From: Bacteroidales bacterium
Lineage (GTDB): Bacteria > Bacteroidota > Bacteroidia > Bacteroidales > UBA10428
Assembly (NCBI GenBank): GCA_016938235.1
Contig: JAFGVA010000128.1
Coordinates: forward strand, 1-63,171
DNA: 63,171 nucleotides
Direction: 5' to 3'
The translations under genes and the position numbers were made by a program. Of the stretch, positions 28,679 to 43,779 are shown piece after piece. The notes beneath the pieces are model-generated. The model saw only the letters and a list, made by a program, of their open reading frames with translations, was not told where the DNA came from and did no database searches. The first letter of the stretch is position 1; each line of letters starts with the position of its first letter.

Positions 28679-29434
28679 TCAGAATAAAAACAGGGCTGCT
28701 GCCAGTGTGCTGAATAAAATTAATGCTCTGAAAATTTTTTCCGGAATTATATCCACAATTTTTTTTCCGGCAATAGCACCAATAATGACTACCGGTATCG
28801 CTGTTAAATCTAATAACAGTGTTTGGGTTTTTATGGTTTCCCAATAAAAAACATGCAAGGGTACTTTACTTATATTTATTATCAGGAAAAACCATGCGCC
28901 CGTGCCAATATAAATGTTCTTTGGAAGACGCATTGAAAGCAGATATAATGCCATAACCGGCCCGGCAGCATTTCCAACCATGGTAGTAAAGCCGCCTGCT
29001 AATCCTAACACAGCTGCGAACCACCAACTATCAGGCACACTTACCTTTTTACTTCTTAAATCCTGCCATAGCATGATGCCGATGCCTAAAACAATAATTA
29101 CTGCAAGCGCTTTTTTAAACTGGGTATCGTTTATTTCATGACCAAAATAAGCTCCTGTCAGAATTCCAACCATTGCCCAGGGAAGTAAACGTATAACATG
29201 TTTCCAGCTGGCATGGCGATTAAAATATTTTACAGCAAAGAAGTCTGCTACAATTAAAACTGGTAAGAGTATTCCAACCGATTCTCTACCACCAAACAAG
29301 CCTGCCATTAATGGTACAACCATAAGCCCCAGTCCCGAAAGACCTGTTTTTGCCATACCAATAAATAGCCCACAAAGTGCAAAAAGAATCCAGTGCCAAA
29401 AATCTAAATTATAAACCTGAAAAACTTCAATCAA
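28679..29434 (-). CDS. TauE/SafE family permease
   Basis: 251 residues, about eight membrane helices, with the two family repeats ('LCGLFIGMAKTGLSGLGLM', 'GLAGGFTTMVGNAAGPVMALY'). Members export sulfite or organosulfonates, others are unassigned. The start used is a TTG, 11 bases after the stop of the SO_0444-type permease gene; no ATG lies before the first helix. The gene is the last of a run of three minus-strand metal-related genes, so it may serve the same physiology, but its own substrate is unknown. Confidence 0.88.
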   Translation of the reverse strand: MIEVFQVYNLDFWHWILFALCGLFIGMAKTGLSGLGLMVVPLMAGLFGGRESVGILLPVLIVADFFAVKYFNRHASWKHVIRLLPWAMVGILTGAYFGHEINDTQFKKALAVIIVLGIGIMLWQDLRSKKVSVPDSWWFAAVLGLAGGFTTMVGNAAGPVMALYLLSMRLPKNIYIGTGAWFFLIINISKVPLHVFYWETIKTQTLLLDLTAIPVVIIGAIAGKKIVDIIPEKIFRALILFSTLAAALFLF

Positions 29435-29445
29435 AGTCTGAAAAA

Positions 29446-30711
29446 TTATTTCATTTCCTCGAATTTGTAACCTATACTTTCAACGGTTGTTTTAACCTTA
29501 TTCAAATCAATATTATCACCCGAAAGTGTTACCTGTTCCCTTTCAAGATCTACTTCAACTCCGTTTATGCCATCAAGTTTAGACAGGTTAGTTTCAACAC
29601 TCATCTTACAATGATTACAATTCATTCCTCGCACAAAAACTTTAATATCTCCCATATCAATTTGAGTTTCTATGTTTTTTTTCGACTTAAATTTCCTTAA
29701 AAATTTCCGAATATAAATATTGATTAACAAAAATACCATAAGAAGTCCCGAAGCTACATGTACCCATTTTGGTAACAGTCCGTGGTTATGATTATGTTCG
29801 CTTAGTGCTGAAATAAACCAATCTCTGGGCAGGAAATAATCGATAAATAATCCTGACAGAAGAGCACCGGCTATTAGAGTTACCAGGTATACAGTCAAGG
29901 TTTTTCTTCCCATAGAATTTCCGATTACCGAAATTGTTGCTGCATTTGTAGCCGGCCCGGCCATAAGAAAAACCAGTGCTGCTCCCGGCGATATTCCTTT
30001 CAGCATTAAAACAGCAGCTATGGGCACCGAACTGGTTGCGCAAACATATACAGGTATTGATGCCACTAAAATGATAAGCATTCCAACAAAATCGTTTTTA
30101 ATATAGGAAGCAAAAAAATCATCAGGTACAAGCATGGCTATTAAAGCTGCAATAAGTAATCCGATAATAAACCACTTTGCAATATCTTCCAGAAAATCGA
30201 CAAACGCATATCTGAATAATTCAACAACAGGATTTTTCTTTTCTTTTTTACCGGTTGAACTTAATGTGTTAACTTTTTCATCAAGTTGAATTTCGTTTTT
30301 CGAGACCTGGTTAGTAAAAAATCCACCAAAAACTCCGGTTATTAATGCAACTATTGGCCTGACAATAGCAAATGGTATTCCTAATAACGAATAAGTTACC
30401 ATAATTGAATCGACCCCGGTTTGAGGTGTTGAAATTAAAAAGGAAATGGCAGCTCCTTTTGATGCTCCATTTTTATGAATAGAAACGCCGGTTGGAATTA
30501 CCCCGCAAGAACAAAGCGGAAGAGGAATCCCTATTAATGCTGCCTTTATTACCGATTTCATGTTGGATTTGCCAAGCAGCTTATTTATTCTGCCATCGGG
30601 TAAAAATACGTGCAGCAAACCCGCAATAAAAAACCCCAGTACCAACCATGGAGCCATATCCAGCAATAGTGCCACCAATTCATTATAATAAGATAAAATG
30701 TATTCCATCAT
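29446..30711 (-). CDS. SO_0444-type Cu/Zn efflux permease with C-terminal HMA domain
   Basis: 421 residues. Residues 10-330 are a DUF318/ArsP-type permease with 'GIPLPLCSCGVIP' (about 56-68) and 'CATSSVPIAAVLMLKG', a pattern of the SO_0444 Cu/Zn efflux family. Residues about 355-421 are a heavy-metal-associated domain with the metal-binding 'GMNCNHC' motif. The permease and metal chaperone are thus one chain. It lies between a TauE/SafE permease and a CDF exporter; together they form a metal-export block. Confidence 0.9.
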   Translation of the reverse strand: MMEYILSYYNELVALLLDMAPWLVLGFFIAGLLHVFLPDGRINKLLGKSNMKSVIKAALIGIPLPLCSCGVIPTGVSIHKNGASKGAAISFLISTPQTGVDSIMVTYSLLGIPFAIVRPIVALITGVFGGFFTNQVSKNEIQLDEKVNTLSSTGKKEKKNPVVELFRYAFVDFLEDIAKWFIIGLLIAALIAMLVPDDFFASYIKNDFVGMLIILVASIPVYVCATSSVPIAAVLMLKGISPGAALVFLMAGPATNAATISVIGNSMGRKTLTVYLVTLIAGALLSGLFIDYFLPRDWFISALSEHNHNHGLLPKWVHVASGLLMVFLLINIYIRKFLRKFKSKKNIETQIDMGDIKVFVRGMNCNHCKMSVETNLSKLDGINGVEVDLEREQVTLSGDNIDLNKVKTTVESIGYKFEEMK

Positions 30712-30741
30712 AAAACCCCCTTAATTTTATAGCATAAAAAG

Positions 30742-31668
30742 CTATTTTTTAGAAATCAGACTTTTTTTATCACAACAGTCGTATTCGAACTGAATAGTAA
30801 CATGATTAACACCAAAATTGTTTCTGAGGGTGCTGCTAATTTTAGTTAGAATAGGACTTGTATCGGAAATGGAAAGGTCGGTGGAAAGATCAGCATGGCA
30901 TTCGAAATGTATCTGGCTATCGTTCAGATTCCAGACATGAACATGATGTATATTGTCTATTTCATCGAATTGCTCAAGTTCAATACGTATTTTTTCGATA
31001 TCGATTGATCGTGGTGTGGCCTGCATAAGTATATCTACAGCTTCGCGAAGAACTGTCCAGGTTTCTTTTAAAATGTATAAACCAATTAAGACTGTAATTA
31101 AGGGATCTACCCAGTAAAACTCGTAAAAATAAATAAGCACAGATCCCACAATTACTGCAACTGATGAAATTGCATCGCCCAGTAAATGCAAATAGGCTGC
31201 CCTTATGTTAATGTTTTTATCCGAGTCGTTTTTTAATAAAAGTACTGCCAGCAAATTTGCCACTAAACCAATAGTTGCAACAACAAACATTATTAGTCCC
31301 TTAATAGGCTCGGGATTTTGAAATCTTTGCCATGCTTCTTTAAACAGGAAAATGGTTATAACAATTAAAGCCACCGCATTAAATAAAGCTGCCAGTATCT
31401 CAATACGTTTGTATCCGAATGTTTTCCTGGTATTTGCCGAACGCTTGCTAATAATATTTGCTATATAGGCCAGAAAAACAGCAATGGTATCGCCTAAATT
31501 ATGAATCGCGTCCGATAAAAGAGCAAGGCTGTTTGAAACAAGTCCGCCAATTATTTCAGCAATTGTAATTACTACATTCAAAACTGTAGCAATCAATAAG
31601 TTCCTGCCACTCAATTCTGAATGTCCATGTCCATGTCCATGACTATGACTAAGATTGCTGCTCTGCAT
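30742..31668 (-). CDS. CDF family zinc/cation exporter (CzcD/ZitB-like)
   Basis: 308 residues with a histidine-rich N-terminus (HSHGHGHGHS), six membrane helices and the metal-site motifs 'LSDAIHNLGDT' (helix 2; about residues 52-62) and 'HLLGDAISS' (helix 5). The C-terminal cytoplasmic domain includes 'HHVHVWNLNDSQIHFECHADL', as in zinc-binding CDF tails. It exports Zn2+ (or Co2+/Cd2+) from the cytoplasm in exchange for protons. It is the first gene of the minus-strand metal block and diverges from the CZB chemoreceptor gene. Confidence 0.94.
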   Translation of the reverse strand: MQSSNLSHSHGHGHGHSELSGRNLLIATVLNVVITIAEIIGGLVSNSLALLSDAIHNLGDTIAVFLAYIANIISKRSANTRKTFGYKRIEILAALFNAVALIVITIFLFKEAWQRFQNPEPIKGLIMFVVATIGLVANLLAVLLLKNDSDKNINIRAAYLHLLGDAISSVAVIVGSVLIYFYEFYWVDPLITVLIGLYILKETWTVLREAVDILMQATPRSIDIEKIRIELEQFDEIDNIHHVHVWNLNDSQIHFECHADLSTDLSISDTSPILTKISSTLRNNFGVNHVTIQFEYDCCDKKSLISKK

Positions 31669-31902
31669 AACATTTTTTATTCCAAATATTATTCTGTAAA
31701 GATACCCTTATTTAAAACCTTTCAAAATAAGTTAAGATTAAAACTGCTCCAGAAACAATCTGTTTTCATGTTTAAAATGTATACAAAAGACACGTTAGGT
31801 GATTTATATCACCATAAAATTATAGGAATAAGCCATTTAACTTTATTAAATTTATATAACAAGTACGTTAATTGAATTCAATTAGATCAAATCCTTACAG
31901 TC

Positions 31903-33894
31903 ATGAAATGGAATAATTTTAAGCTTTCAACAAAATTTGTCATCTCTTTTGGCACAATAATTATAATTCTTGCAGTTGTTGCTACCTGGTCGATACGTGG
32001 AATAGGAAAAGTAGTTACAAATGCATCTGAAGTTATCGAGGGAAATAAACTAAGGGCAAATATTGAGAACAAATATATTCAACATTTAAAATGGGTTGAT
32101 AAACTGGAAGAATTAGTATATGACTCCGAAATTAATGAAGTTACATTAGAAACCGATCCTCATAAGTGTGCTTTTGGTATTTGGTTTTATGGGGGCGGAC
32201 TTGATACCGTTCAAAAAATTGCTCCTGAACTTGTTCCTATTCTGAAGGAAATGGAAGATGCCCACACAAATTTACATGCAACTGCATCTGAAATCATTGA
32301 AATATATAAACCCGCTGATTACAACCTGAGCATTTTTATGGAAGGCATCAGAGCCAGCCATTTAGCATGGAGCAACCAGGTTAAAGATGCCCTGTTAAAT
32401 AAAAAAAGAAAACTTGATGTTCAGATGGATCCGGAACAATGCAGCCTCGGTAAATGGATAAGCAGTGAATCGACTCATAATTTCCTGGCAAACCACCAAG
32501 ACTACAAGCCTTATATTGATTCTCTGATTGAAGAGCATAACAACTTGCATAAAAGTGCAAAGGTAATTGATAGTTATTTACACCAAGGAAATTTTACGGC
32601 TGCTCATAACTATTTTAAAAGCAATACAGCCGTTCATCTCGACAATAATATCATCAATTTAAATAACCTGGTTGACTATAATAATTCAAAACTCGAAGGC
32701 TTAAAAAAAGCTGAAAATATTTTAAGCAGCGAAACTCAGTTATATCTTACCGAATTTGAATTTCTTTTTAATGATGTTATTGAAAGTTCGAACAAATATA
32801 TTTTAACAGATGATGCCATGTTAAGTTCTGCAAGAAGAACAAAAGGTGCAGTATTGTTTTATTCTGTTATTGCGGTCATCATTTCAATTGTTGTCGCGGT
32901 TATACTAATTCTTGGATTCCTTGGTCCGATAAAAAAAGCCATAGCATTTGCACAACAAATTGCGCAAGGAGACTTAACAGCTAAAATTAGTCTCAATCAG
33001 ACAGATGAAATTGGCCAGCTTGTAAATTCCCTAAGCGATATGTCGGCCAAATTAACATCAATCGTTGAAGATGTAATGAATGGGGCTAACAACATTGCTC
33101 AAGCCAGTATGGAGATGAGTTCATCATCGCAACAATTATCTCAAGGAGCCAGCGAACAGGCTTCATCTGTTGAAGAAATTTCTTCAGCCATGGAAGAAAT
33201 GACGGCTAATATTCAGCAAAATGCCGACAACGCCGAAAAAACAGAATTCATTGCCAAGAATGCGCAACAAGGTATTATTAAGGGACACGAATCGGCCGAT
33301 ATCTCCTCAACATCGATGCAACAAATTACAGAAAAGATTTCAATAATCAACGAAATTGCATTTCAGACAAATATACTGGCACTTAATGCGGCTGTTGAGG
33401 CTGCCAGAGCCGGTGAATACGGAAAAGGTTTTGCTGTTGTAGCTTCTGAAGTTCGTAAATTGGCCGAAAGAAGTAAAGATGCTGCCGAAGAAATAGACAA
33501 AGTGTCGAAAAACGGAGTGAAAATAGTAGTTGAAGCAAGTAAACAATTAGCCAATATTGTACCTGAAATTGAAAAAACGGCAACGCTTATTCAGGAAATT
33601 GCTGCTGCCAGTATGGAACAAAACTCGGGTGCAAATCAGATAAGCAATGCAATTCAGCAATTAAACAATGTTACACAACAAAATGCTGCTTCTGCTGAAG
33701 AACTGGCCACAAATTCTGAAGAATTATCAAGTCAGGCAGCCTATTTAAAAGATCTAATTTCATTTTTCAAGATTAAGGAAATAAGAGAAAAACAATTAGA
33801 ACAGGTAAAGAGTTACGAAGTTAATTTCAATTCAATTGCAGTAGTCCCGGAAGAAAGTGAAACTGTTATGGAAGAAGAAGATATTATGTTTTAG
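31903..33894 (+). CDS. Methyl-accepting chemotaxis protein with two tandem CZB zinc-binding domains
   Basis: 663 residues. A transmembrane helix (12-30) is followed by a periplasmic region with two CZB domains: first HLKW (His61), CAFGIW (Cys89) and HTNLH (His121/125); second HLAW (His153), CSLGKW (Cys180) and HNNLH (His212/216). This is exactly the HxxW-CxxGxW-HxxxH pattern of the chemoreceptor zinc-binding domain. A second membrane helix (about 316-341), a HAMP domain and a methyl-accepting signalling domain ('[20 protein letters not shown]') follow. It should sense Zn2+ or zinc-linked oxidants. It diverges from a zinc exporter operon, suggesting related control. Which output path (chemotaxis or other) it feeds is not visible. 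Confidence 0.9.
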
Positions 33895-37070: not shown

Positions 37071-38255
37071 ATGAGAATTGTATCAGGAAAATATCTTCTT
37101 TTTGGGTTTCTGTTTTGTATTTGCTCATGTTCAACTTTGAAAAAAAGCCTTAATGATGTTCCACAATATTTTTCAGAAGAAAGTGAAAAACAGAAATTAA
37201 TTTCCGATGCCCGGTATTGCTCGCAAAGCGAAGATTACGAAAATGCTATTATTCTCTATAATCAATTAATTGAAAAATACCCTTTACAAGGAACCTATTA
37301 TACCGAAAAAGCCAATGTACTTTATAAGCAGGGCCAATATGCTGAATCTCTGATTTATTTAAATAAAGCTATTGAATTACAAGACGATAACATATTTGAC
37401 TCATATTATTTAAGAGCTGAAATCTTCTATGAACAGGAAAAATTACAAGAAGCAAAAAAAGATTTTGAAAAGGCTACAGAACTTAAAAAAAACTGCTCTT
37501 CCTGTTATAATTACTTAGCTTCGATAAACAGCAGACTATATGAAGATTTGCAGGCTATTGCCAATTTTAAAAAAGCCATTGAACTTGACCCTTTAATAAC
37601 TACATATTACCAGAACCTTGCTCTTGAATATGCTAAACAAAATCTTTTCGATTCTTCACTTACATTTTTGAACAAAGCCATTATAATAAATAGGAATAAA
37701 GCATCGCTCTATTTTGTAAAGGGCATTATTTTATATGAAAAAGATGACCGAATTCGTGCCGATTCAAATACTATCAAAAGCCTGAAAATGGATCCGTCAA
37801 TTTCTGAACTTCTTCTTACAGAAGTTTACCACTCGGTTATGAATAATAAATTATCCTTTGCAGCACACTTACTTGATATGGGTATTTCTGTATATCCCAC
37901 CCATATTCCATTTCTAATAAAACGTGCCGAAATCTGCGAATATAAGAGAGATAATACATGCGCTATTGAATTTTACTCACGGGCATTAAGTATCCATTCA
38001 GCAGAAACTGACTGGTATTTGAAACGGGGGAAGTTATTATTCATGGAACAAAATTACAATGAGGCAATAATTGATTTTTCCAGGGTATTGGAAAGTCAGC
38101 CCTACAATACCGAAATATTACTGAAAAGAGGATATGCTTTATACCGTTTAAATAATTCTGAAGGAGCAGAAGCCGACTGGACTGCTGCATATAATCAGGG
38201 AGACAATCGGGCAAAAGAATACCTGAAAATTTACCTTAAAGTTGAATATCCATAA
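37071..38255 (+). CDS. TPR-repeat lipoprotein
   Basis: 394 residues with a lipoprotein signal ('FGFLFCICSCSTL') and about nine or ten TPR units over residues 40-390 ('YENAIILYNQLIEKYPLQGT', 'YAESLIYLNKAIELQDDNIF', 'LQAIANFKKAIELDPLITTY', 'NYNEAIIDFSRVLESQPYNT'). It is probably a periplasmic or outer-membrane scaffold; no enzymatic motif is seen. The gene is the second of a possible unit with the Ig-like lipoprotein gene 76 bases upstream. Confidence 0.85.
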   Translation: MRIVSGKYLLFGFLFCICSCSTLKKSLNDVPQYFSEESEKQKLISDARYCSQSEDYENAIILYNQLIEKYPLQGTYYTEKANVLYKQGQYAESLIYLNKAIELQDDNIFDSYYLRAEIFYEQEKLQEAKKDFEKATELKKNCSSCYNYLASINSRLYEDLQAIANFKKAIELDPLITTYYQNLALEYAKQNLFDSSLTFLNKAIIINRNKASLYFVKGIILYEKDDRIRADSNTIKSLKMDPSISELLLTEVYHSVMNNKLSFAAHLLDMGISVYPTHIPFLIKRAEICEYKRDNTCAIEFYSRALSIHSAETDWYLKRGKLLFMEQNYNEAIIDFSRVLESQPYNTEILLKRGYALYRLNNSEGAEADWTAAYNQGDNRAKEYLKIYLKVEYP

Positions 38256-38332
38256 AAAGAAGTGCCCGAATTCCCATGGGGAAAACAGGCAACTTCGTTG
38301 CTTATATCGATTAGGGTGCCAGCAGAGCCAGA

Positions 38333-41300
38333 CTAAAACTTAAGCTCTAATACCATCTGAATTCCTCTTGAAACGGGATAATAGTTTTTGTCAATGCCCG
38401 GCAAAGTCTGGGCTTTGCTTTGTTCAATCAGATTCCAGTTGTTAAATTCAGGATCCTGACCTTTATAATTTGTTAGTGTTAAAAGATTTAACCCGGTAAT
38501 TCCCAGGCTTAACTTTTCGATACCCAGTCGCTTAATACTTCTGGAGCTAAACTCATAAACCAGGCTTAAATCGGATAGACGAAGGTAAGAAGCCTCTTCG
38601 ACCGACAAATCGGTAAGTATTCCATCGCTATTACCTGTTGTTAGTTCTGAAACTTCATAACCGCAATATTCCTGAAAGGTGCTTAAATTAATCGCCTGGT
38701 TACCGTAAGTATAATTGAATAAGGCCGACAAGTCGAATTTCCCGAATTCTAATTCAAAACCAAAACCGCCGTAAATTTTTGGATTGGTATTAACCAGCGG
38801 CTCCCTGTCAAGTTCGTTTATAACACCATCTTTGTTTACGTCTGCCAACATAAGAACCTGATTTTCTTTATCGATATTCTGAACACGATATCCGTAGTAT
38901 AATCCCAAAGGTTCGCCTGTTTTTAACTCCTGCCCTGTTAAAACGCCCCCGATATTTCGGTATATTCCTCCTGATGTAGCAACATCCAGTTCGGTTATTT
39001 CTGTCCGGTAAAAGCCAATATTCGAGTTTATCCTTAATTTCAGAGAATAAAGAAAAGGCAGAAATGTTTCAATATTTGCATCAAAACCTTTGCTTACATA
39101 ATCTCCTGCATTTATCCATTCGTAACTTGTTTCATTAACACAATTCAGGAAATACATCTCTTTTGTTATATGTCTGAAATAATCTGCCCTTATACTTAGG
39201 CGGTTTGAAAACAACCCAAGGTCAATACCAAGATTTTGTTTACCGTTTTTTTCCATTGATAACCCGGGTGAAGTACTTATTTCTGGTACCTCATCACTTA
39301 ATCCAAACAAACTATAGTAAACCGGGTTAAAAGTCATGAACATGGGAAGCATTGGTTTGCTGTTTGTTCCGATGCTGTACCTGACTTTAAAATTAGTAAT
39401 AGCTCCAACAGCATTCATAAAGTTTTCGTCAGATATTTTCCAACCTAATGACACATATGGTAAGTGATTCCATTCACCAGTAGCAAACTCCGGAGATTTT
39501 TCAACCCGATAAATTATCGAGGTGTAATACCTGTTTCTTATATCGTATTTCAAACTACTGAAAAAAGTGTTCATATTTACCTTCTGGCTAAGACTCTGAG
39601 AACTGTTTTCTGTACTTTTTGTGTTCTGTTTCAGGTAATTATGTTCGTAATTATTTTCAAAATCGGCAATAAAGTTAAGATTATGAATTCCTGTACTTAA
39701 GGAATACTTTATACCTGCTGAATATTTACTGTAACCATATTTTTGATAAATTTCAGCATCCTCTTCCAAGGTTATTTTGTAATTATTTTCACGATAATTT
39801 TTTCCGTAATTTCCAAACAGGTACAAACCATCAACAGGTAATTTAAGCTCTGCATTTAAATTACCTAAAAGCTGACATTCTGTCGAATTTGTCTCAATCA
39901 GGTTATCTAATGAAGATCCTTTGTAAGGAGCTACAGATTTTATATTGGCATAATTTCCTTTTACATTACCACTTATTGAAAGGTAATTACGAAACATAAT
40001 AAGGTTAAAAACATTTGATGCCGTATAATTCTTAAGTCCTGTATTCTGAATAACTCCCGCATCATTATTATAACCGGCATTAAACTTTACAGTGTATTTA
40101 TTTGATCCCGATGAGTAGTTCAACGCGTATTTCTGTGTACTGGCCGGCTCAACTAAATCTTTGTACCATAGATTTGATTCACTAATCAATGATTGTGGCA
40201 AATCTGCTTTTTTGATACCTGCTTGTGCTTTAAAATTTACCTTATGCTTACCAAAAGCTCCTTCTTTTGTATTAATTATTATAACACCATTACCGGCCCG
40301 GTTTCCATATATACTAGAAGCGGCAGCATCTTTCAGAATTTCAATCGATTCTATATCGTCGGGATTTACTGATAAAAGCGGATCCTGGTCGAAATCGCCG
40401 GCCTGAACCGGAACACCATCAACTATATACAATGGCTGATTACCGGAAGACAAAGAATTATTGCCACGAATACGAATGCTGGTTCCGGTTCCGGGAGCAC
40501 CACTATTATTTACAATTTGTACCCCGGCAGCCCTTCCCTGTATCGTAGAAGCAACCGACATGTTGGTAGTGGTTGTAAAATTGTCGGATGATACAGAAGC
40601 AATCGACCCGGTAACAGACGACTTCATTTGAGTACCATAGCCTACAACCAATACTTCGGTTAAACTAAGTACATCTTCAGTTAATGAAATAGAACCTGTG
40701 TTTGTTAAAGCCTGAACATTTTGCACATTAGCGACTGCAGCATTGCTCACACCTTTCGGAAGTGGTAAAGGCTGTTTTACTGATGTTAGAGTTTGGCTTT
40801 CATTTCTAACCAAACTATCAACTGCAATAAAGGAAGTATATTGGGTTAGTAAATTGTATTTAAGCCCCAGGTCTGTAACTTCTGATACCTGTTCCTGAGT
40901 TAAACTTTGACTGTTACTATACGAAGGATTTGTATAATAATGAGCAAAATCGTCGATATACCGTATTTTGTTTCTTGCCCACAAATAGCGTAATGCCTGT
41001 GTGTTTTCCCGGTTTGCATTTTTGAGGTTGAAAATTTGAACATAGGGCACATTTCCGCTTACACCTTTTACTTTTATTGTACCCTCGGGGCTGCCTTTAT
41101 ATTTTCCGTATACAAGAATCGAACGTTGGGCAAATACATCGGGTATGCCTGAAGGTTCGTAATCGTATGCCTCAAAGTCACCAAAGTCAATCCTGATATC
41201 GGTTAAAACCGGGTATTTTATAAGATCAATGAGTTTTTCCCCGGCTATTTCGCCTTCCGATTGATTTGTAGCAACAAAAGACTCTCCCATTCCGGCATGC

Positions 41301-42916
41301 GATAAACCCTCAATAAGATATCGATTACATGACGAGCCTAATCCAAAAGCAAAAAGATTGGCTTCATTCAGGTTATCGCGTACATATTGAAAAGTTTCTT
41401 TTTCAAATGAAACATAACCATCGGTTAGCACGATAAACGTTCTTGAGTAACCAGGTTGAGGACCGACTTTCATGGCACGTTTCAATGCCGCCAATAATTC
41501 GGTTCCTCCCCCGCCATGCTGGCTGTTCATGTTTTTTATTCCATACTGAACATTGGTAAATGTTGCAGGTTGAGATGATTCCCACAACATATTGCTTCCA
41601 CCGGCAAATGTGAGAATATTATACTTATCTTCCGTATTAAGACCTCCTAACAATTTTCGCATGGTCGCTTTTGAAACATCAAGCGGGAACCCGCTCATAG
41701 AGCCCGAAACATCAATCACAAAAATATATTCACGTTTTGTAATATCGGCTTCCTGCGGGGCTTTGGGGGGTTCCATCATGAGTAAGAAGAAATTCTCATC
41801 TTCATGTTCGTAAAGCAGAATTCCCGATTCTACTTTTCCTCCGCGTAAACCAAACCTCAGAATAAAATCGCGGTTCCCCCCATAAGCCTCCTCAGAATCT
41901 AGTTTAATACTTGCTGTTTTTTCATCGGAATAATTTGTAAGTACTTTATGTGTTGTACAAGCTAGTTTTTTAATAGGAATGCCTGAATTCAGATTTACTT
42001 TTATATCGAAAGTATTCAAAGGCTTGCTGCCCTCAGTAAGGTAAGGATTTTCTATCCATTTTTCAGCGTTGTTTTCAGGTGTATTTGAATACCTTGGACC
42101 CACAACAGTTGGATAAACAAATTCATAAATACCATCAACCGATTCAAGCATTTCGGTATATTTCATGGTAACCTCAATAGTATCTCCGGGAAGAATATTG
42201 GCAACGTTCATCTGAAAAACATTAGGCCTTTGCTGCTCAAGAAGAGTAGCTGTTTTGCCCTCTTGTTTTGCAGTTTCATAATCGGTTCGGGCCTGCTGTT
42301 TTTCTTTGATTTTTGCTTTAAGAATTCGATTACCGATACGCATATTCATACCATATACGGCAGCTTTTGTCGAACCCGGAAAAATATAAATTGCCTCCAG
42401 GGTATTTCTACCTTCATTTACATAAAGTTGTTTTACGGTAACATCGGCGATTACCCCGGCAATATTTACCTCGGCGGTTGTTGATTTTAGTGGCATCCTG
42501 TCAACAAATGAATCATCGCTTTTAACAAAAAAGTAGGGTGAAAGTGTTTTATCTCCCCCATCGGGTATGGTATGGTGAAAAACTTCATTATTGTCATTTT
42601 CTGTTTCATCCATATTACTTTTGGCTTGCGAACTTCCCGACTCAGCAGTAACCAGCATTTCTTGCGGTACAAAGCCAACATAGCTAAAAATTAAAATCGA
42701 ACCCACAGGAGCTTCTATTGAATAAAAGCCATTGATATCAGTAATTGTTCCGGTTGTTGTTCCCTTAATTGAGATAGTTACACCGGGCATTGGTTCACCC
42801 TGGCTGTCGTTAAGTATACCCGAAATAGTTCTGGTATTCTGAGCCATAAGGCTAACAAATAATAAGTTTATCACCAGGAAAAGACTTATTCTCTTTATTC
42901 TTCGTATTGTTTTCAT
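38333..42916 (-). CDS. Fusion: CarboxypepD_reg-like, VIT, VWA and SusC-type TonB-dependent receptor
   Basis: A 1527-residue chain (start at ATG 42916; a longer frame to 43006 only adds residues before the signal peptide). Order: signal peptide (1-25), carboxypeptidase-like regulatory domain (28-92), VIT domain (about 125-265; 'ADVTVKQLYVNEGRNTLEAIY', 'RTDYETAKQEGKTATLLEQQ'), a beta linker, a VWA domain (about 396-580) with complete MIDAS residues Asp402, Ser404, Ser406, Thr472 and Asp499, the usual VIT-VWA tail 'LTQYTSFIAVD', then a TonB-box-like 'LTEVLVVGYG' (752-761), plug (about 762-885; 'GNNSLSSGNQPLYIVDGVPV', 'ASSIYGNRAGNGVIIINTK') and a barrel to the end. No SusD gene neighbours it. Domain families are known separately; their joining in one chain is unusual. 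Confidence 0.88.
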   Translation of the reverse strand: MKTIRRIKRISLFLVINLLFVSLMAQNTRTISGILNDSQGEPMPGVTISIKGTTTGTITDINGFYSIEAPVGSILIFSYVGFVPQEMLVTAESGSSQAKSNMDETENDNNEVFHHTIPDGGDKTLSPYFFVKSDDSFVDRMPLKSTTAEVNIAGVIADVTVKQLYVNEGRNTLEAIYIFPGSTKAAVYGMNMRIGNRILKAKIKEKQQARTDYETAKQEGKTATLLEQQRPNVFQMNVANILPGDTIEVTMKYTEMLESVDGIYEFVYPTVVGPRYSNTPENNAEKWIENPYLTEGSKPLNTFDIKVNLNSGIPIKKLACTTHKVLTNYSDEKTASIKLDSEEAYGGNRDFILRFGLRGGKVESGILLYEHEDENFFLLMMEPPKAPQEADITKREYIFVIDVSGSMSGFPLDVSKATMRKLLGGLNTEDKYNILTFAGGSNMLWESSQPATFTNVQYGIKNMNSQHGGGGTELLAALKRAMKVGPQPGYSRTFIVLTDGYVSFEKETFQYVRDNLNEANLFAFGLGSSCNRYLIEGLSHAGMGESFVATNQSEGEIAGEKLIDLIKYPVLTDIRIDFGDFEAYDYEPSGIPDVFAQRSILVYGKYKGSPEGTIKVKGVSGNVPYVQIFNLKNANRENTQALRYLWARNKIRYIDDFAHYYTNPSYSNSQSLTQEQVSEVTDLGLKYNLLTQYTSFIAVDSLVRNESQTLTSVKQPLPLPKGVSNAAVANVQNVQALTNTGSISLTEDVLSLTEVLVVGYGTQMKSSVTGSIASVSSDNFTTTTNMSVASTIQGRAAGVQIVNNSGAPGTGTSIRIRGNNSLSSGNQPLYIVDGVPVQAGDFDQDPLLSVNPDDIESIEILKDAAASSIYGNRAGNGVIIINTKEGAFGKHKVNFKAQAGIKKADLPQSLISESNLWYKDLVEPASTQKYALNYSSGSNKYTVKFNAGYNNDAGVIQNTGLKNYTASNVFNLIMFRNYLSISGNVKGNYANIKSVAPYKGSSLDNLIETNSTECQLLGNLNAELKLPVDGLYLFGNYGKNYRENNYKITLEEDAEIYQKYGYSKYSAGIKYSLSTGIHNLNFIADFENNYEHNYLKQNTKSTENSSQSLSQKVNMNTFFSSLKYDIRNRYYTSIIYRVEKSPEFATGEWNHLPYVSLGWKISDENFMNAVGAITNFKVRYSIGTNSKPMLPMFMTFNPVYYSLFGLSDEVPEISTSPGLSMEKNGKQNLGIDLGLFSNRLSIRADYFRHITKEMYFLNCVNETSYEWINAGDYVSKGFDANIETFLPFLYSLKLRINSNIGFYRTEITELDVATSGGIYRNIGGVLTGQELKTGEPLGLYYGYRVQNIDKENQVLMLADVNKDGVINELDREPLVNTNPKIYGGFGFELEFGKFDLSALFNYTYGNQAINLSTFQEYCGYEVSELTTGNSDGILTDLSVEEASYLRLSDLSLVYEFSSRSIKRLGIEKLSLGITGLNLLTLTNYKGQDPEFNNWNLIEQSKAQTLPGIDKNYYPVSRGIQMVLELKF

Positions 42917-43062
42917 AGGAATAATTATTTGGTTTCCTGTATGAAAACTGAAAATTAGAATCCCCCTAAAACAATTTGTTTTTTTGCTACTGTATTCAGA
43001 TAACAATAAGATGCAACCAAAATGGTATAATTTTTGTTATTATTGGTAAAAACCAAACACTT

Positions 43063-43779
43063 ATGAAAACCTTTACCCTGTGTACTCTTTTGTATGTAGT
43101 TACTTTTACAGGATTTTCGCAAGCAGTACCCCTGGTTCCGTATTTAGCCTCAAACACTTTTGAAGAATATGGTCGTGTGTTCGCTTATGAAAACATTGAT
43201 GATGTAATTGTTTCTATAGGATTTGAATCATATAATAAAAATGAATTTATTCTTGAACTGACAATCGATAACCAGTCTGACGACACAATATTTTTTGATC
43301 CTGCCGAAGTTTATGCATTCAGAGACTGGGAAAATTTTACTGTAATAGATGATCAATTGTATTTCGCTGTAAATCCTGAAGTGGAACTGGATAGCATCTA
43401 CCAGACAGCAATGGTTGAAGAACAGATAATAAAAGACACCAAAAAGGCAAGTATTGTATTAGGAATTGTTTATGTTGCAGCCGAAATAGCCGGTATTTCT
43501 TCAGATGCCAGCTATAACACAATGGAGTTTGTTCGTGGAGCCCATGATTTAGCCCAGTTTGGTTTAGCTGTTTCGCGCGAAGAAGCCAGAAACAAACTAT
43601 GCAATATATACCATTACGAAGATTACTGGGTAAATGGTGCATTAAGAACTACCATCATTCCTCCCGGAAAATATGATAGTGGCAAACTACACTTTAGAAT
43701 ACCTAAGGCTGAAATTTATAAAATTTTTCTGCCTGTTGAAGACAGAATTTACAGATTTGGGTTTATTAAGGATATATAA
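43063..43779 (+). CDS. Secreted protein of unknown function
   Basis: 238 residues from the ATG at 43063 ('MKTFTLCTLLYVVTFTGFSQ' is a clear signal peptide); the frame extends to 42976 but only before the signal. The mature part has a beta-rich first half ('NKNEFILELTIDNQSDDTIFF'), a helical middle segment (about residues 110-170) and a final beta part ('GKYDSGKLHFRIPKAEIYKIF') resembling the layout of conserved Bacteroidota periplasmic proteins. I recognise no family. It diverges from the VIT-VWA-SusC fusion gene with only about 146 bases between starts, so joint regulation is possible. Confidence 0.6.
   Translation: MKTFTLCTLLYVVTFTGFSQAVPLVPYLASNTFEEYGRVFAYENIDDVIVSIGFESYNKNEFILELTIDNQSDDTIFFDPAEVYAFRDWENFTVIDDQLYFAVNPEVELDSIYQTAMVEEQIIKDTKKASIVLGIVYVAAEIAGISSDASYNTMEFVRGAHDLAQFGLAVSREEARNKLCNIYHYEDYWVNGALRTTIIPPGKYDSGKLHFRIPKAEIYKIFLPVEDRIYRFGFIKDI

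Follow-up and report, generated by a model that had tools for sequence, protein, structure and literature searches.

SusC receptors constitute a major uptake route of the Bacteroidota, and their usual layout comprises an N-terminal extension (PF13715), a TonB box, a plug and a barrel. A SusD partner is usual as well, but it is not strictly defining. In TonB-dependent receptors generally, the region ahead of the TonB box and plug lies on the periplasmic side, and TonB acts at the box and the plug. The portions of PMC7782687 consulted place the extension (PF13715) of the SusC protein Bt1763 upstream of a TonB box that reads VDEVVV. The same portions report that SusCs controlled by ECF sigma factors carry an STN domain between the extension and the TonB box, and that STN communicates with the anti-sigma factor in known systems.

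VWA domains have also been linked to energy coupling of the Ton and Tol kind. A 2025 report (PMC12204202) proposes, in the sections consulted, that YfbK-like inner-membrane vWA proteins are TolA/TonB-like force transducers in which the vWA domain replaces the TonB end, and it reports no deletion phenotype for them. The protein described here likewise links a vWA fold to such a system, but its vWA domain sits on an outer-membrane receptor rather than on an inner-membrane anchor. No description of VIT-VWA or VWA fused to SusC was found in the open-access literature searched, which agrees with the original prediction that VIT-VWA with a full SusC barrel is not a known combination; an earlier mention is possible. 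Three papers in which VWA and plug words co-occur (PMC7440613, PMC6801697, PMC3387259) do not contain such a fusion in the parts consulted.

A VIT-VWA module inside a SusC-type receptor

The window, by which we mean the whole 63,171-nucleotide stretch of Bacteroidales DNA that was analysed, carries a gene whose product combines VIT and VWA domains with SusC (Table 1). As had been claimed, the frame is uninterrupted from ATG to stop, and a reading check of the plus strand in the matching frame reveals many stops. HMM searches with Pfam and NCBIfam models agree with the predicted order of a carboxypeptidase-like domain, VIT, VWA and plug. There are no Rfam matches over window positions 38000-43500.

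Table 1. Features of the fusion gene and of related genes discussed in the text. Residue numbers refer to the fusion protein of the window.
Feature	Position	Strand	Basis or remark
VIT-VWA-SusC fusion gene	38333..42916	-	single 1527-codon frame; ATG 42916, stop 38333
Signal peptide, residues 1-25 or so, placed by eye	42842..42916	-	sequence; helix 3-23 in AlphaFold model
CarbopepD_reg_2 = SusC N-terminal extension, residues 31-113	42578..42826	-	Pfam, E 4e-16
VIT domain, residues 143-253	42158..42490	-	Pfam, E 6e-34
VWA domain, residues 398-550	41267..41725	-	Pfam VWA E 2e-10; VWA_3 E 3e-15
TonB-box-like LTEVLVVGYG, residues 752-761	40634..40663	-	likeness to VDEVVV of Bt1763
SusC plug, residues 765-878	40283..40624	-	Pfam Plug, E 8e-19; TIGR04057 signature at 854-884
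Predicted SusC-type barrel, about residues 890-1527	38336..40249	-	TIGR04056; AlphaFold pTM 0.81; 8a9y TM 0.80 on query
YfbK-type VWA proteins with SusC-type extension, no barrel; TonB box and plug start by eye	L138:2069-4057, L139:9672-11600, L141:4806-6650		next listed frame after GldM-tail gene
SusC N-terminus with VIT/VWA, 1083 residues (G279)	L140:4075-7326		next but one after GldM-tail gene
VIT-VWA paralogue of the window's genome (G000, contig C153)	L002:1384-3756		TonB_C end, lipobox-like signal
Genomes with a full-length GldM-tail gene	G327, G041, G307, G015, G349, G281, G347, G187, G279, G369, G000		

The curated model for SusC/RagA proteins (TIGR04056, NCBIfam) scores the fusion protein at 482 bits, above its cut-off of 368, and the SusC signature (TIGR04057, NCBIfam) is matched with 55.8 bits, above a cut-off of 46.2. 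Like Bt1763 and RagA, the protein possesses an N-terminal extension, a TonB-box-like motif, a signature-bearing plug and, by model, a large barrel, and it retains the order of extension, TonB box and plug even though the VIT-VWA module interrupts it. Given that the Pfam barrel model has no match in the protein at E 0.001, the barrel call rests on TIGR04056 and a structure model. AlphaFold was applied separately to two overlapping parts of the protein, with alignments drawn from the window and from the sequences of fetched loci. The model of the SusC part, which covers 801 residues and draws on 23 sequences, reached a pLDDT of 77, and its top PDB match is the levan SusC 8a9y of the levan utilisome (E 3e-53). 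The fusion is predicted to carry a closed, large SusC-like barrel, and to this extent TIGR04056 and AlphaFold bear out the claim of a full SusC-type barrel after a TonB-box-like stretch and plug.

The fusion differs from other SusC/RagA proteins in its long VIT-VWA insert, in a plug and barrel that are shorter than those of the SusCs measured, and in that no SusD gene was found on its contig. The absence of an accompanying SusD gene had been noted before; a genome-wide search with PF07980 alone returned 33 matches, none of them on the window's contig (C224), and Pfam found no SusD, sigma factor or FecR among the 12 scanned proteins neighbouring the fusion. The SusC part is 97-147 residues shorter than those of four uncut fusions and 116-236 residues shorter than 13 SusCs of its own genome, and it shares only 23-29% of its residues with each of the 22 others compared. 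No close free-standing SusC relative of its barrel was found at E 1e-50 in 295 genomes of the order, each represented by up to three scored candidates. Elsewhere in the window, positions 28679-33894 hold metal-related genes (a TauE permease, an ArsP permease with an HMA domain and a cation efflux protein), together with a chemoreceptor gene whose product has two zinc-binding CZB stretches.

In its other half, the protein resembles VIT-VWA proteins both in its domains and in its fold. The model of residues 1-916 (48 sequences; pLDDT 71.5, pTM 0.63, with residues 711-825 below a pLDDT of 50) has as its best PDB match inter-alpha-inhibitor heavy chain 1 (6fpy; E 4e-33, TM 0.45 on query and 0.65 on target). 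Residues D402, S404, S406, T472 and D499, which we take to be the MIDAS of the VWA domain, are unchanged across a 48-row alignment that includes the window's row, and the expectation that all five MIDAS residues are intact holds under this assignment. The domain may bind a metal. The model for marine proteobacterial sortase targets (TIGR03788) is matched over VIT and VWA with 402 bits, but this is under the curated cut-off of 552, and the tail of the fusion is SusC.

Contrary to the original prediction of a simple fusion, the two halves are not joined end to end. A carboxypeptidase-like domain is indeed present (PF13715), but instead of being a separate part it is the N-terminal extension of SusC itself. 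This extension stops near residue 90 (in the AlphaFold model, the final strand of the CarbopepD_reg_2 domain stops at residue 88), the VIT-VWA part begins by eye at DKTLSPYF, the start usual for its free relatives, and the TonB box and plug resume only beyond residue 750. Because the extension precedes the module and the TonB box and plug come after it, we regard VIT-VWA as an insertion within SusC, in which about 660 residues, VIT-VWA included, separate the extension from the TonB box. The insert occupies the slot held by STN in ECF-sigma-controlled SusCs, and no STN match was found in the fusion protein at E 0.001. Since the part of a receptor ahead of its plug faces the periplasm, the VWA domain is predicted, from established receptor topology, to be periplasmic. 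Of the two locations that the original prediction offered for an adhesion/MIDAS module, surface or periplasm, the latter is thus retained.

The fusion is rare and recurs in three families

Five further genomes, from two other families of the order, encode the same domain order in a single frame, giving a total of six fusion genomes in three families plus one copy that is cut at a contig end. This recurrence confirms that the fusion is real and is not the joint of one assembly. The place of insertion is identical in the six genomes, with the TonB-box-like motif at residues 738-770, and all six have the MIDAS motifs and open frames. Two of the five other fusions were scanned, and their scores of 498 and 523 bits both lie above the SusC cut-off.

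The order sample (n = 392) was searched with a VIT-VWA query at E 1e-60, scoring being limited to three candidates per genome. The query matched in 49 genomes, and open frames of more than 1500 residues were found in four, namely G000 (the window's genome), G349, G041 and G327. Short or cut VIT-VWA frames occur in six genomes (G139, G174, G347, G409, G326 and G091); that of G347, which contains the extension, VIT and VWA and runs off the end of its contig, is 46% identical to the window's fusion. Within G041's family (101 genomes), VIT-VWA is present in four genomes, all with open frames of 1599-1653 residues, which adds G416 and G425 to the list, the fusion of G425 stopping at the end of its contig. 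These are four species of one genus (g24), which keep the fusion beside the same operon genes. The fusion is found in one of five genomes of G349's family and in one of the 23 of the window's family, nine of which have VIT-VWA. Across a sample of the phylum, VIT-VWA was detected in 12 of 395 genomes, and a frame above 1500 residues only in the window's own genome. A pattern search of named genomes, confined to close relatives, matched 12 loci. Eleven of these lack the fusion and have only VIT-VWA frames of 721-771 residues, and the twelfth (L050) has a 27% match over residues 7-1525 and no frame with the VWA motif sought.

A common fusion, which the original prediction had named as speaking against it, was not observed, four of the 392 genomes of the order sample being fused; five other genomes share the joint. 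The single-chain fusion is rare, as claimed, but it is not a singleton.

Relationships of the two halves

The columns of the VIT-VWA half place the six fusions on one side of a branch with an SH-aLRT of 92, a value from a quick tree of 48 rows that lies below the mark of 95. The columns of the SusC half group the other five fusions (100/99) and leave the window's, on a long branch, outside this group (p-AU 0.0096). This second comparison included 17 of 20 fetched SusCs from the fusions' own genomes and none from other genomes, with L100, L108 and L114 left out because the motif pattern missed them. A single origin of the SusC parts of all six fusions is not supported, the p-AU value having been obtained with long branches. 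Either the barrel of the window's fusion was exchanged or it diverged fast, or there was more than one fusion event.

A sigma, FecR, STN and GldM-tail gene set

In genus g24, genes for an ECF sigma factor, FecR, an STN-family/CarbopepD protein and a GldM-tail protein are followed by the fusion gene on the same strand in all three loci that are long enough (G041, G327 and G416), and in G425, whose short contig truncates the locus, the last two genes of the set are visible. The sigma, FecR, CarbopepD and GldM_4th assignments are above Pfam cut-offs in G041, and the genes of G327 and G416 were assigned from their resemblance to those of G041, which for FecR and sigma amounts to 62-78%. For the STN-family protein of g24, neither an STN match at E 0.01 nor a useful PDB match (best E 0.18) was obtained; an STN above the cut-off is present in a relative from G187 that is 37% identical to it. 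A profile of the GldM-tail protein finds PorM structures (E 1e-9). A set of sigma, FecR, STN, GldM-tail and VWA genes was not found described in the open-access literature searched.

This arrangement invites comparison with FecA-type receptors accompanied by FecI/FecR and with STN-bearing SusCs. The fusion is, like these, a predicted TonB-dependent receptor, and in g24 it stands in an operon with ECF sigma and FecR genes. Unlike them, it has no STN, the STN-like domain being on a separate protein, and VIT-VWA lies ahead of its TonB box. The FecA-type adjacency of sigma and FecR genes is thus seen in g24 but not among the 12 proteins neighbouring the window's fusion. The same four set genes occur without the fusion on contig C74 of the window's genome and on C86 of G349. 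In the window's genome, the signalling link is accordingly one of co-occurrence only, and the scanned neighbours look unrelated. At L078:342-6122 of G349, the fusion lies some frames downstream of PorP-like, OmpA/TPR/PD40 and PKD-like genes (the PorP and PKD names were given by eye), and this neighbourhood resembles T9SS accessory sets.

Full-length matches to the GldM-tail protein (more than 290 of 337 positions, with up to five candidates scored in each genome) are present in 11 of the 392 order genomes, which span five families. All five genomes of the order sample that have a whole fusion (four) or a cut copy (G347), which span four families, are among them, a coincidence that is uncorrected for kinship. 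Counting the shorter matches at E 1e-20, which mostly cover about the first 150 positions, raises the number to 97 of 392. A protein of about 150 residues that matches the GldM-tail companion over its first half is found at G000:C80:27944-28384 and in many genomes of the order, and it is this short form that most of the 97 possess.

The slot after the set is occupied by the fusion in G041 and G327 of the order sample. In G347, G187 and G369, the next listed frame is instead a YfbK-type VWA protein with a SusC-type extension (Pfam), which matches the SusC model in G347 and has a TonB box and plug start recognised by eye in G187 and G369. The G279 protein (Table 1), which also gives weak TPR and DUF2135 matches, brings to six of 11 the GldM-tail genomes with a VWA protein carrying SusC N-terminal parts in or beside this slot. 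By eye, no VWA gene adjoins the set in the other five (G307, G015, G000, G349 and G281). Note that the set is incomplete on two of the contigs, since G347 shows only its last part and G279 has no sigma gene.

Possible functions of the fusion

We tentatively favour a reading in which the protein is a SusC-type receptor driven by TonB, with a MIDAS module that binds a partner in the periplasm and most likely signals via a FecI/FecR-type set. The barrel and plug would reside in the outer membrane and serve in the uptake or sensing of a ligand, and TonB would pull on the TonB box. VIT-VWA would hang in the periplasm next to this box, where the MIDAS could bind a periplasmic partner, the likeliest being a member of the sigma/FecR/STN/GldM-tail set. 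The module might then pass the receptor's state on to a FecI/FecR-type set whose STN is on a separate protein, or be under the control of that set. Several observations count against this reading: in both the window's genome and G349, set and fusion lie on separate contigs; by eye, five of the 11 GldM-tail genomes have no VWA gene adjoining the set; the receptor has no STN match; the window's SusC part is divergent, short and ungrouped; and only a single genome of its family has the fusion.

A more specific form of cell-surface signalling, split between proteins, can be imagined, and we consider it doubtful in its full detail. Here VIT-VWA would take the STN slot of the receptor, the STN on a separate protein would be read by FecR and the ECF sigma factor, and the GldM-tail protein would act as an extra periplasmic part. 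Because VWA proteins of different kinds, each with a SusC N-terminus, fill the slot after the set, coupling of VWA to the TonB box would be the core of this idea.

The nearest rival to the preferred signalling receptor is a purely mechanical role, in which VIT-VWA is a docking or force-bearing element of the Ton machinery that gates the access of TonB, or is pulled along, and has no regulatory part. Although we judge this rather unlikely, it draws on the tendency of the VIT-VWA family to be joined to Ton-system parts, which is repeated, as TonB_C tails, plug-like tails and the SusC fusion recur. Among 53 scanned relatives without SusC, which are those frames recognised by patterns in the fetched loci and not all that exist, TonB_C ends are present in 29, including the 55% identical paralogue of the window's genome (Table 1). 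The force-transducer proposal for YfbK-like proteins and the PorM likeness of the GldM-tail companion are also consistent with a mechanical role. Against it, no Ton motor gene is present among the scanned neighbours in the window, and any energy coupling by the relatives with TonB_C tails is putative, as is their anchoring: a crude pattern recognises a lipobox-like motif in only seven of the 29. By eye, a frame beside the paralogue looks like another TonB_C-type protein. Among phylum relatives, L090 and L095 have tails read by eye as small outer-membrane barrels, and L093 and L094 have plug-like stretches by eye, L094 not having been read to its end; the tails of L090 and L093 have no Pfam match.

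The rarity of the fusion in the window's family and the short, divergent SusC part there would also suit a chance fusion of little function that has been retained for a time. However, such a drifting by-product is improbable given that six genomes preserve open frames and MIDAS motifs and that four species of one genus keep the gene beside the same operon genes. GC3 of the window's gene is moreover level, at 0.32 in each of its three parts.

Some VWA proteins do reach the cell surface, such as Mfa5 of P. gingivalis, which the part of PMC5445135 consulted lists as T9SS cargo, and six of the 53 relatives end in a T9SS tail. A surface adhesin, in which VIT-VWA would be exposed outside and bind a ligand that the barrel then imports, is nonetheless very unlikely for the fusion, since the module precedes the TonB box and plug, at the periplasmic end of known receptors, and the protein ends in a predicted barrel with no T9SS tail match by Pfam. 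Finally, an assembly artefact fusing two genes is refuted for the architecture because five other assemblies show the same joint.

Concluding remarks

The architecture of the fusion is solid; within a known receptor family it is new, rare and conserved, and its link to signalling is promising but unproven. According to the portions of PMC7782687 consulted, the function of the SusC N-terminal extension is unknown, and once it is deleted, growth on levan is not detectable within 24 h. A natural receptor in which a large module separates the extension from the TonB box offers a way to study what happens at this place. The fusion also ties VWA domains, which the sections of PMC12204202 consulted propose as parts of force machines, to a Ton receptor, and it points to the sigma/FecR/STN/GldM-tail/VWA gene set.
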